Part shown: positions 18,302 through 61,444 of the stretch, piece by piece
Position numbering within the stretch: position 1 is the first letter of the stretch
Layout of the letters: the number at the start of each line of letters is the position of its first letter
Source of the DNA: Candidatus Chlorohelix allophototropha
GTDB taxonomy: Bacteria; Chloroflexota; Chloroflexia; Chloroheliales; Chloroheliaceae
Length of the DNA: 64,000 nucleotides
NCBI RefSeq assembly: GCF_030389965.1
Contig: NZ_CP128399.1
Location: forward strand, 558,001 to 622,000
Reading direction: 5' to 3'
Notes under the pieces: model-generated
What the model was told of the DNA's origin: nothing
The model's input: the letters and a program-made list of their open reading frames with translations, nothing else
Databases searched by the model: none
Made by a program: the position numbers and the translations under genes

Positions 18302-20764
18302 TTATTTGGTCAGAATTATTGCAGTGGTTGTGTAAGCCGGGAAAACATAGTTGAAGGCTGAACCGGATACCGCCAATGGCACAGGTTTTATGCTAGCCAA
18401 ACTGCCTGCCACATTCATCGCATCTACAGATACATCGTTAATAGTAGCGGTCGCATCTAGGCTGGCTTTGGTTATTTCGGTTGGATTCGCGCTCTTCATT
18501 TGGTAAACGCTGCCTGAACTTGCGTTGAACCCGGCTAGATTAATCGGTGCAGTAATATCCGAACCGGAGAGGTTGGTAACCATCAGTTTCAACTTGGAAG
18601 GGTCAGACGTATCACGCGAAGCCCAAATAGAGATATTTGCATTGTCGAAACTGCTCGATTCTACTATCTTATCTCCGAAATAGTTGGCGTACATCAGATA
18701 AGCGTAGTAAGCGGGGCTTACATTGATAATCGTAGTGCCATTCACTTTGTCTGGATATATTATCGAATAAGATTGGGTAGCATATCCCTCCCAACGAGTG
18801 GCAAAATTAACGCCGTTATAGTTCATTCGCCCTAACACATCGGCTGTCCACAAAGCGTTGAGGAAATTCCCATTCATTGGATTATCGAAATTACAAGCAT
18901 CAAAGTTATATTCAGTTACTCCCTGTGGGATTGTGCCTTTGGTTAACTCTTTTGTAATACGTGGCGGGAAAATATCTGCTTGCTTTCTGGAGTATGTATT
19001 GCGCCAAGAGTTATCGGCTATATTCGACCAAGTGTAACGTGTTAAGTCTGCAGGGTCATTGCTGTTGCATGCCTGATACCAATGGTATGACACTGCTTGT
19101 ATTTTCGCCCCTTTGGGGCTGGTTACCGCAAAAGGTTTGGTCAAATATTCAGATAGACTTGTTATAGTGTCACTGTAGTTCTGGCGAGTAGCTTCATACG
19201 GCGAGGCTACGCCGGAAGCAATTACTTGGATAGAAGGGTCTACCGCCAGCATCGCGTCTAAGTAAGCGCTGACATCATTTGCGTATTCGTCAGGAGTCGG
19301 TCCATTCTTTGCTGCATCAAGCTCATTGCCCAATTCCCAGTATTTAAATCCGTAGTTGTGTTCCACATTGGTGTACTTAACCATGTCAGCCCACATAGCC
19401 GGATTGCTGGTAAAAATGTTTACTTCAATCATAACATCTGCGCCCACAGCCTTTGCCAGTGTGGCAACACTATCGATTTCTTCGGGGTTGTACTGGAAAT
19501 AGTATGGTCCGGTTTTTCCATCGGGCCAACCTATGTTGGGGTCTCGCACTTGGTTGCGATCCCAGCCTACGGAATTACTCCAGTTACCACCAGCGTAGCG
19601 GATAAGCCCAACATTGGCAGCTTTAAGCGCTTGCACTAGCCCCGGCACTTCACTGGGATAGGGTTTGCCCCAGCTATGTTCCCAGTTTACGAAGTTTACG
19701 CCCAACATCTTGTTGGAAAAGGTGTTTTTATCTACCCCGAAATTAACGTTTAACGCTTTACCCGCCGGGACTGCCCGCGTTGGCTGGGGTGTGGCAGCCG
19801 CAGTAGTGGTTGGAACGGTAGTAGCAGGAGGAGTGATAATGGGGCTGTTGTTGAGAGTGTAGCGCCATTTATAATAGTGTTGTCCTACGTTCCCCATCTC
19901 CACTTTAAACCCTACCGGATTGCTGGGAGTGTAGGTCAATACCCTGCGCTCAAATAATTGCACCAATACCATTCTGTCACTACCTGCTACCTGTGTCGAA
20001 ATCCAAAAAGGTTCGCTTATCGGGCGACCTAGCACGTAAGTTGGATTCCCATAGAAAATAGAACTGTTCAGATATGAGTTACCGTTCCACACTTTTCCGG
20101 TGTTTTTGCCGTAATCCACAAAAACATCGGCAATATTATGCTGTGTAACGTCATCATAGCCGCTGCTACTGTGGGTTTCCGGTGGATTAATGCTGCTAAT
20201 ATTTCCGGCTTTATCAATACTGGCAGTTATGATACTACTGTTTGAAGAGGGCTTGCCGTTTTGGTTTCCAAAAATAGTTACTACATTTCTAAAACTGGCG
20301 TAAGTCGGCGCATTAGGGTTAGCGTTACCATCGTTGGGATCACCCGCAACCTGCACGGTGCTAGGGGGGAGTTGGGTAAAGGTTTCATCCCCATCTTGGC
20401 GCAACCCGGTAACCAATTCTTTGACCAGCAACCCGGTAGTTACATAGAATAGGTCGTTCTTGTTACCTGCCGGATTATTGATTTCCATGCGGGCTTTTTC
20501 GAAATAAGCCACTTTACGGACGGTGCCATTATATGACTCGCCTGAAATAGATTCGGCACCTACAACTACTGGTCCCCAAGTATAGCCGCGCCCTGCTGCG
20601 GCTTGTTCAAATACGGCTTTATCCAAACCGTTCCAAGTTTTTTCAAAAGCGGGATCGGTGAAAGATAGAGTAGCTGAAGCAGGTTTCCACAAAATCAAGC
20701 CCACTCCTAGCGCAATAACCACAAATCCTAGCCCAAATACCCCCGGTATTATCAGTTTTTTCAT
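18302..20764 (-). CDS. Secreted GH-A-clan glycosidase with N-terminal Chloroflexota module
   Basis: I start at the ATG at 20764 (MKKLIIPGVFGLG...), which has AGGAG four bases upstream; an in-frame ATG 45 bases further up lacks one. The protein is 820 residues with an N-terminal signal/anchor helix. About residues 40-302 form a module ending VEMGNVGQHYYKWRY that recurs at the C-terminus of the M28 peptidase at 59630. A Thr/Pro linker follows (about 305-335). The catalytic TIM barrel (about 340-700) carries the acid/base Glu in YWELGNELD and the nucleophile Glu in VTEYNFDACN, the clan GH-A pattern closest to GH44/GH51/GH39-type enzymes. A C-terminal beta domain of about 120 residues ends the protein. 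The likely substrate is a beta-glucan, xylan or arabinan; this cannot be settled here. Confidence 0.78.
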   Translation of the reverse strand: MKKLIIPGVFGLGFVVIALGVGLILWKPASATLSFTDPAFEKTWNGLDKAVFEQAAAGRGYTWGPVVVGAESISGESYNGTVRKVAYFEKARMEINNPAGNKNDLFYVTTGLLVKELVTGLRQDGDETFTQLPPSTVQVAGDPNDGNANPNAPTYASFRNVVTIFGNQNGKPSSNSSIITASIDKAGNISSINPPETHSSSGYDDVTQHNIADVFVDYGKNTGKVWNGNSYLNSSIFYGNPTYVLGRPISEPFWISTQVAGSDRMVLVQLFERRVLTYTPSNPVGFKVEMGNVGQHYYKWRYTLNNSPIITPPATTVPTTTAAATPQPTRAVPAGKALNVNFGVDKNTFSNKMLGVNFVNWEHSWGKPYPSEVPGLVQALKAANVGLIRYAGGNWSNSVGWDRNQVRDPNIGWPDGKTGPYYFQYNPEEIDSVATLAKAVGADVMIEVNIFTSNPAMWADMVKYTNVEHNYGFKYWELGNELDAAKNGPTPDEYANDVSAYLDAMLAVDPSIQVIASGVASPYEATRQNYSDTITSLSEYLTKPFAVTSPKGAKIQAVSYHWYQACNSNDPADLTRYTWSNIADNSWRNTYSRKQADIFPPRITKELTKGTIPQGVTEYNFDACNFDNPMNGNFLNALWTADVLGRMNYNGVNFATRWEGYATQSYSIIYPDKVNGTTIINVSPAYYAYLMYANYFGDKIVESSSFDNANISIWASRDTSDPSKLKLMVTNLSGSDITAPINLAGFNASSGSVYQMKSANPTEITKASLDATATINDVSVDAMNVAGSLASIKPVPLAVSGSAFNYVFPAYTTTAIILTK

Positions 20765-59629: not shown

Positions 59630-61444
59630 TTAGCTGTAGCGCCACTTGTAATAATGTAATCCCACGTTACCCATCTCCACGTTAAAGCCGCTAGGGTTGC
59701 CGGGAGTATAAGTCAGGGTGCGCCGCTCAAATAGCTGAACCAATACGTCTTGTTCTAATCCCCCTACTTTGGCGCGTACCCAATAAGCTTCGCTGATGGG
59801 GAAGCCAATCGCGCTCACCCAATCGAAAACGCCTCCGTCCGTGTAGGTATCCGCGCTGCTGTCGTAGATTCGCCCTTGCGTTTGAAACCAGTTAAAGAAC
59901 ACGTCCGGTATATTATGTCCGGTTTCAGGAACATAAAACACATTGCGGGCAAGCGGTGAAAGCGCGTAGTTATAACTTTCTCGCCCCTTTACGTCTAGCG
60001 TGGCTGCTACCGCTCCGCTATCCGGCGCAACTTTACCCCGCGCTACAATCTCTTTGAAACTGGCGTAGGTTGGGGCAGTATCGTTCAGACCGGGGGTATC
60101 ATTGGGGTCGCCTGCAACCGCTACCCGACTCGGCTCTCGCGGGATAAAGCTGCTATCGCCCATTTGCTGCCGTCCGCTGGTCATTTCCACTACCAGCAAC
60201 CCGTTGGTCACAACCCCGCTCGTTCCTTTGGTCAGTTCCATTCGCGCTTTGTCAAAATAAGCCACTTGTCGGCTTCCCCCTGTGGCTTCGGCATAAGCCT
60301 CACTAATGCTATGGTTTGGCGCTGGTCCCCATAACCAACTTCGTCCGGTTGCTGTTCCGGTGAGAAGCGGTCGGTCGGCTCTGCTCCAATTATCCTCAAA
60401 AGGCTGTGCCAGAGTCGGGAAGAAACGCTGTGACAATGGGGTTGCTTTATACCCGCTTATGAGCAACGCTGCACGAGTCACCTCTGCCATAAGCGAAGCA
60501 TCTAGGCGTAAACTGCCATCTGATTGGTACAGTTTGTCACCGGGCGAGTGGTAGCGCGGGTCGCCGCTGATGATGTCTCGTGCATCCTCGTTAAAAAAAA
60601 TCGCGCTACCCACCTGAGTCTCCCAGAAACTGCGCTGGTCGCTGTATTGGTTCGGGTCGCGTGCCAGCGGAAAAAGGTCGCCAATGGTATAAACCTGATA
60701 TTTCAAAGTGGGTAGATAGCTTTTCACCAGATTACTGCCTTCGTTGGCAAGCGCATAACTGCTGCCCGGCACTGAAATAGCGTAGAGCGTTTGGTTGGTT
60801 GTGCCGTCGCGAGGATAGCCGATCATATCAAGGTTGATTACCGAAGCGATAGGGCGTTGGGTGCTCTGGTTTTGGAGATATTGGCTCACATAGTAGTGAC
60901 TGCCCAAATAACCGAACTCCTCGCCATCGAAAAATACCAAATCAATATCGTCTTTAAACTGCGCGTTTTTCAGTAATCGCCCGATTTCAATTAACGCTGC
61001 AATTCCGCTGCCGTTATCATTTGCGCCATACGCCAGTTCGTTGCAAGTAGGGGGAAACAGGCGCGTTGGGCTACTGTCCAAATGAGCAGTGATGAGGTGG
61101 CGTTGCGCCGGGTTTGCGCCGGGTTTGTGGACAATAATATTTTGCAAGCGGGTTTCTCGTAACCCATCCACATAACCGCTAAAGGGTTGTATTTCTACCG
61201 TTAGCCCTAATTGTTGCAAACGATTCTTGATATAGGTGATGGCAAGGTCGTGTCCTGTGTCGCTGACACAGCGCGAGAAACGGCTTACTGCTTGCACTTC
61301 TGCCACCAGCCTTTCAGGAGAAACCTGTGAGATTAAGTCTTGTAATGTGGCGTTAGTGATCGGGGCAGCAACGCTGGTAACAGGCAAATAGCATAGCCAC
61401 TGTAGAGACAGGTAAACCACCAGAATTAATGTATATTTTTTCAC
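59630..61444 (-). CDS. Secreted M28-family aminopeptidase with C-terminal Chloroflexota module
   Basis: A 604-residue exopeptidase. A signal peptide (about 1-27, ending SVAAP) precedes an M28 Zn-peptidase domain (about 30-340). Visible ligands or catalytic residues are His/Asp in ITAHLDSSPT, Asp in GANDNGSGIAALIE, Glu-Glu in FFDGEEFGYLGS, Asp in INLDMIGYP and His in RYHSPGDKLYQ. Residues 345-604 are a beta-rich module ending VEMGNVGLHYYKWRY that is clearly homologous to the N-terminal module of the glycosidase at 18302. The two share AGDPND, APTYASF, PISE and LVQLFERRxLTYTP. It may bind the cell surface or substrate. The gap behind its start (61445-61700) is AT-rich with no gene. Confidence 0.88.
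   Translation of the reverse strand: MKKYTLILVVYLSLQWLCYLPVTSVAAPITNATLQDLISQVSPERLVAEVQAVSRFSRCVSDTGHDLAITYIKNRLQQLGLTVEIQPFSGYVDGLRETRLQNIIVHKPGANPAQRHLITAHLDSSPTRLFPPTCNELAYGANDNGSGIAALIEIGRLLKNAQFKDDIDLVFFDGEEFGYLGSHYYVSQYLQNQSTQRPIASVINLDMIGYPRDGTTNQTLYAISVPGSSYALANEGSNLVKSYLPTLKYQVYTIGDLFPLARDPNQYSDQRSFWETQVGSAIFFNEDARDIISGDPRYHSPGDKLYQSDGSLRLDASLMAEVTRAALLISGYKATPLSQRFFPTLAQPFEDNWSRADRPLLTGTATGRSWLWGPAPNHSISEAYAEATGGSRQVAYFDKARMELTKGTSGVVTNGLLVVEMTSGRQQMGDSSFIPREPSRVAVAGDPNDTPGLNDTAPTYASFKEIVARGKVAPDSGAVAATLDVKGRESYNYALSPLARNVFYVPETGHNIPDVFFNWFQTQGRIYDSSADTYTDGGVFDWVSAIGFPISEAYWVRAKVGGLEQDVLVQLFERRTLTYTPGNPSGFNVEMGNVGLHYYKWRYS

Follow-up and report, generated by a model that had tools for sequence, protein, structure and literature searches.

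The window, a stretch of 64,000 nucleotides (C1:558001-622000) from the 6.09-Mb genome of the photosynthetic bacterium 'Ca. Chlorohelix allophototropha', encodes two exported proteins that share a module of about 260 residues. Strain L227-S17 has replicons of 2.96 Mb, 2.45 Mb, 375 kb, 241 kb, and 55 kb (PMC10972752). The first protein is a peptidase (Pfam Peptidase_M28, E = 6.6e-31), in which an earlier note on this DNA had placed the module correctly; translation of that interval gives the C-terminal 260 residues of the 604-amino-acid open reading frame. In the second protein, which more likely starts at the ATG of residue 16, the remainder had been called a glycosidase, a label that proved weaker than stated. 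The NCBIfam match to arabinosylfuranosidase ArfA (residues 396 to 541, E = 3.8e-4) is below threshold, and no significant Pfam match was found for the putative glycosidase domain.

Features of the two module-bearing proteins in the window (positions are those of the window).
Feature	Position	Strand	Remarks
Exported M28-family peptidase, 604 aa	59630..61444	-	N-terminal hydrophobic signal; M28 residues 102-309; module residues 345-604 at the C terminus
Module copy 1 (M01), 260 aa	59633..60412	-	Residues 345-604 of the M28 peptidase
C-terminal LGFP-like unit, copy 1	59633..59935	-	Module residues 160-260; GFPISE, VLVQLFERR, VEMGNVG; unit-profile domain E 1e-10
Middle segment, copy 1	59936..60190	-	Module residues 75-159; without detectable similarity to unit or LGFP
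N-terminal LGFP-like unit, copy 1	60191..60412	-	Module residues ~1-74; core QVAYFDKARMEL..VTNGLLV; single-sequence domain E 8e-4
Exported protein, 835 aa	18302..20809	-	N-terminal module and C-terminal putative glycosidase domain
Module copy 2 (M19)	19856..20650	-	Directly behind the signal segment of the 835-aa protein

The two copies align over their whole length, as had been claimed, with 113 of 270 columns identical (42%), 20 gap columns, and a BLASTP E value of 4e-64. All of the shared sequence blocks named in the earlier note were found, and because the alignment runs from FEDNW to the closing YYKWRY, the similarity is not restricted to the last 40 residues. Chance similarity is excluded by 28 further full-length or nearly full-length copies in the same genome, with E values of 1e-66 to 3e-34.

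In total, a search with the window copy recovered 30 full-length or nearly full-length copies in this genome (E = 1e-179 to 3e-34), and the five genomes sampled from the family, this one included, contained 30, 39, 33, 35, and 40. The module was detected in 46 of the 301 sampled genomes of the phylum; of these, 34 belong to the same class, from which 37 genomes were sampled, and 12 are among the remaining 264, in which the matches were mostly partial or weak. When 84,980 species genomes were screened with restrictive peptide patterns, eleven loci were recovered, all with Chloroflexi-group titles.

Domain scans of the 30 module proteins of this genome identified about 15 named partner families, and about 9 of the 30 proteins had no confident partner name. 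The partners included peptidases (Peptidase M28, S8 subtilase, and C39), glycosidase-type domains (GH99, GH114, GH5-like, two Melibiase-like, GH10/39-like, and DUF2961), and a sortase and a YkuD L,D-transpeptidase, both of which have wall-associated functions. An esterase, CAP (in two proteins), PQQ and NHL propellers, TPR, PPC, Big_5, and TIR domains were also found; CAP and PPC recurred in other genomes, where SNase and PD40 propellers were additional partners. P/T-rich linkers often lie between the module and its cargo. A signal-like hydrophobic segment opens 28 of the 30 proteins, and one of these has a Tat-like RR-x-F-L motif. The CAP protein with copy M28 has neither a signal-like segment nor a membrane helix before the module. 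The TIR protein (G000:C2:1964330-1966033; L049:3331-5031:+) consists of a TIR domain (residues 12 to 132), one membrane helix (167 to 199), a linker rich in Ser, Thr, and Pro, and a C-terminal module (301 to 562) beyond the helix, which is a Toll-like-receptor topology in a bacterium.

The module is N-terminal in 21 proteins and C-terminal in 9. On a maximum-likelihood tree of the 30 copies this distribution required seven to eight changes of side, and clustering by position was no stronger than chance (352 of 500 shuffles were as low). Resolution is poor over much of the tree; when only well-supported branches are counted, no more than two changes are required, and two is therefore the conservative minimum. 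One example is the TIR protein, whose C-terminal module is nested in a supported clade of N-terminal modules. The module is C-terminal on an S8 peptidase of Thermomicrobium roseum and N-terminal on one of this genome. The module is thus mobile and widespread across this lineage, as the earlier note had proposed: there are many copies, in this genome as in its family and class, at either protein end and next to unrelated catalytic domains.

The same proposal had left a choice between surface attachment and substrate binding. The glycosidases among the partners (GH99, GH114, Melibiase, GH5-like, and DUF2961), together with the high conservation across copies of the aromatic residues W9, W28, W211, W257, Y52, and Y254, would suit a module resembling a carbohydrate-binding module (CBM) that targets enzymes to external polysaccharide substrates and not to the envelope of the cell itself. 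However, peptidases, sortase, L,D-transpeptidase, CAP, SNase, propellers, TPR, and a membrane TIR protein have no common external polysaccharide, no CBM family matched the module at the Pfam cutoff, and a sister unit described below is present on a YkuD-like protein and a PP2C membrane protein. Targeting of this kind is therefore considered unlikely. As the partners act on unrelated substrates, substrate binding is disfavored, and surface attachment is the likely function.

The module had no match in Pfam, NCBIfam, or PHROGs, which rules out an already named domain as an explanation of the whole module, and it carries no annotation in the versions of Pfam and NCBIfam used here. Neither the module nor the module region of the full proteins had an SLH, LysM, CWB2, or CBM match above the cutoff in Pfam-A or NCBIfam, and PF08310 (LGFP) did not match either module protein of the window (P0001 and P0002) at E values up to 10. 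Sequence searches of the PDB with a single module sequence gave only chance hits, and those with a 30-row module profile gave myoglobins at E values above 0.6, which were likewise attributed to chance.

A six-frame search of the genome with PF08310 yielded two sub-threshold places (L102 and L103) that led to a family of shorter units; the remaining sub-threshold places were rejected as chance. The Chloroflexia unit is ~75 residues long, with the consensus YFxETGHNL..F..YW..NGGL..FGYPISEEF.EVNP.DGK.Y.VQYFER.RFEYHPEN.GT.YEVLLGLLG, and occurs mostly as tandem pairs ~95 residues apart. Of 41 genomes sampled from the class, 35 contain it, and this genome has about 45 such places, module copies not counted. 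The L102 protein of this genome scored 23.6 bits with PF08310, over the Pfam gathering threshold of 22 bits, mainly on the segment joining its two units and not on the FGYPISEE core. An iterated profile seeded with only two units recruited the C-terminal parts of the module unprompted. Examples of the unit (e.g., G000:C2:2161708-2162244 and L031:2593-3090:-) are homologous to both module ends and occur in the same genomes on similar exported proteins, but they are unfused and mostly tandem, do not end in MGNVG.HYY.WRY, and have no enlarged loop ahead of GFPISE.

The C-terminal part of the module has an LGFP-like consensus (GHN..F......G.PISE.YW....G....VLVQ.FERR.LTYTP.NP..F.VEMGNVG). A unit profile built from units alone, with the modules left out, detected this part in each of the 30 copies (domain E values from 3e-6 to 3e-14, most of them between 1e-8 and 3e-14), as well as many N-terminal module parts, down to an E value of 5e-6. 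In hhalign comparisons with the unit profile, the module alignment matched through its C-terminal ~95 residues (probability, 98.9%; P = 1.4e-17) and the N-terminal half through its first ~75 residues (96.5%; P = 8.6e-10). The scores of the module, N-terminal half, and C-terminal half against the unit profile were 102.7, 51.9, and 96.3, compared to maxima of 21.3, 18.0, and 16.5 among 100 column-shuffled profiles, and they were also far above the score of the reversed profile. The middle third gave no signal with either the unit or the LGFP profile, and it was accordingly rejected as a further repeat.

The unit in turn matched the LGFP repeats of phage lysins and PS1 (hhalign probability, 94.1%; P = 1.3e-7; score, 38.8; shuffle maximum, 19.9), as did the C-terminal half of the module (81%; P = 1.2e-5; score, 31.2; shuffle maximum, 16.8), so that significant profile similarity to LGFP was found for both. 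Direct comparison of the profile of the N-terminal half with LGFP gave no match (P = 0.08), and this half is linked to LGFP only via the unit. The full-length module matched a multirepeat LGFP profile weakly (P = 0.036), and the comparison with single units is the informative one. A direct internal duplication was also considered and rejected, as the N- and C-terminal halves matched each other no better than shuffles did (P = 0.08); the duplication of the module ends is visible only through the unit profile. Judged by profile similarity, the ends of the module are remote LGFP-type repeats, the N-terminal end only through the unit. The statement in the earlier note that the module has no known name thus stands for the module as a whole, but it overlooked what the ends are related to. 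No link between LGFP repeats and surface proteins of Chloroflexi was found in the literature searched.

AlphaFold2 models of the tandem unit and the module were built from 13 alignment rows each, taken from the window and related loci. In the tandem-unit model (pLDDT, 80.9), each unit has one helix and then four strands (H10-18, E33-36, E43-49, E53-56, and E67-70). In a Foldseek comparison with 350,542 PDB chains, the first match of this model was 6swz, the LGFP domain of Corynebacterium glutamicum MytA (E = 3e-3; probability, 0.96), and its next match had an E value of 0.96. For the module model (pLDDT, 71.7; pTM, 0.75), 6swz was at rank 3 with a nonsignificant E value of 0.34. The TM-scores to 6swz were low (0.30 and 0.24). 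The LGFP repeat has been described as a helix with a three- to four-stranded antiparallel sheet (PMC11299179), and this fold is seen in the model of the sister unit.

LGFP repeats (PF08310; MytA/PS1, 6swz, and 6sx4) and the module appear to have the same order of elements: a helix, a G-[FYL]-P-[IT]-[ST]-E turn, a VQ.FE strand, a further strand, and a terminal strand at V..G..G. Both occur at the ends of exported and of wall-acting proteins, and actinophage lysins carry LGFP repeats. In contrast to the 54-residue tandem repeats of LGFP, typically five in MytA, the module is a fixed block of 260 residues in which two enlarged units of ~75 to 95 residues are fused, with ~85 residues between them; it has no Pfam LGFP match, and its N-terminal unit has no LGFP tetrapeptide. 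We know of no mycolate-arabinogalactan envelope in Chloroflexota. SLH, LysM, CWB2, and CBM domains resemble the module, as it is interpreted here, in general logic, in that they are noncatalytic, are repeated across the secretome, and hold cargos at the surface; they differ from it in sequence, with no match above the cutoff in Pfam or NCBIfam.

Because both ends and the unit are related to LGFP-type repeats, we regard the module as a fused and enlarged LGFP-type repeat pair, and we consider it probable that this pair has been copied onto exported proteins as a noncovalent tether to the cell's own envelope polymer. Two divergent repeats, separated by ~85 residues and with the loop region of the C-terminal one enlarged, would have been fused into a single evolutionary and structural module, and this module would then have been copied to either end of exported proteins. 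As its ends derive from a wall-binding type of repeat, the module is probably a common envelope clip. In passages of PMC11299179 that cite Dietrich et al. 2020 (doi 10.1111/mmi.14492), the LGFP domain of MytA is described as binding peptidoglycan-arabinogalactan, and by analogy the module most probably clips its proteins to an envelope polymer, so that one layer would hold cargos as different as propellers, a sortase, an L,D-transpeptidase, a membrane TIR protein, and many other unrelated enzymes. The comparisons above establish the homology, number, and placement of the copies, the export signals and breadth of their cargos, and the relationship of both ends to LGFP; that the module binds, what polymer it binds, and that it retains its cargos there are inferred. 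The cargos share a place outside the membrane, not a substrate, which makes such a tether the simplest mechanism. Rather than a new fold class, the module is a fused derivative of a wall-binding repeat that has expanded in this lineage and has no name.

The partner of the module might instead be a protein, if it docked its cargos into a surface lattice or complex of an S-layer-like or cellulosome-like kind. Dozens of module and unit copies per genome on diverse cargos would fit a scaffold as well as a polymer, and an S-layer has been reported in one species of Chloroflexales (PMC7332563). Such docking is nevertheless improbable: scans of the module proteins with Pfam and NCBIfam gave no cohesin, dockerin, or SLH match, and the only characterized relatives, the LGFP repeats, are present on phage lysins and are described in the passages cited above as binding wall polymers. 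A ligand-free spacer or stalk that exposes catalytic domains past the wall would be consistent with the P/T-rich linkers and with the stalk-like extension formed by the LGFP repeats of MytA (PMC11299179), yet 9 of the 30 modules are at the very C terminus, with 0 to 12 residues after them, and thus lie beyond the cargo, where a spacer would be useless. Moreover, the invariant residues are concentrated in the Q-x-F-x-R-R and MGNVG..Y..WR motifs, more than a scaffold requires, and a spacer is thus very improbable.

An envelope tether would be of some consequence for this part of Chloroflexota, in which the envelope architecture is unsettled (PMC7332563). With the module on 30 to 40 proteins per genome, and a similar number of unit-bearing proteins, it would allow the surface proteome of the class to be predicted from sequence, and for many enzymes that otherwise lack annotation it offers an anchor that can be tested. 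The module also brings the cell wall-binding LGFP repeat, known chiefly in mycolic-acid actinobacteria and their phages, into a second phylum. We know of no annotated anchoring rule for exported proteins in this group. A more speculative, rather doubtful extension is that Chloroflexia have a general code for noncovalent surface display, in which one envelope polymer docks ~75 proteins per genome via two related LGFP-derived modules, and that the TIR protein with its membrane helix and module senses this polymer outside and signals inside, for example, upon wall damage or phage attack.

Several other loci were observed along with the unit and the module. A PP2C phosphatase (G000:C2:851069-854578; L053:4573-8079:-) has weak TPR similarity, a membrane helix (residues 821 to 852), and two LGFP-like units at its end, and it is possible that it is an envelope-sensing signaling protein. 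The L103 place (G000:C2:435.9 kb) is a 390-amino-acid frame of an L,D-transpeptidase-like protein with two LGFP-like units ahead of the catalytic part, a second wall-remodeling enzyme that is predicted to be anchored, in this case by the sister unit. Unit arrays on the 375-kb replicon are dense, with four places in 6 kb (G000:C3:4982-11185) and seven in 24 kb (G000:C3:333183-356940), which suggests local gene amplification. Outside the class, two Chloroflexota loci (L099 and L100) have a shorter, distant version of the module, ~200 residues long and behind a P/T-rich linker, that may be a stage on the way from tandem units to the fixed block of 260 residues. Among IMG/VR contigs (L115, L116, and L147 to L161), two contain the module and ~15 loci contain the unit, representing either phage proteins or host contamination. 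Two near-identical 345-amino-acid tyrosine recombinases, one per chromosome (L104, G000:C1:993676; L105, G000:C2:1665952), represent a recent duplication or a mobile element.
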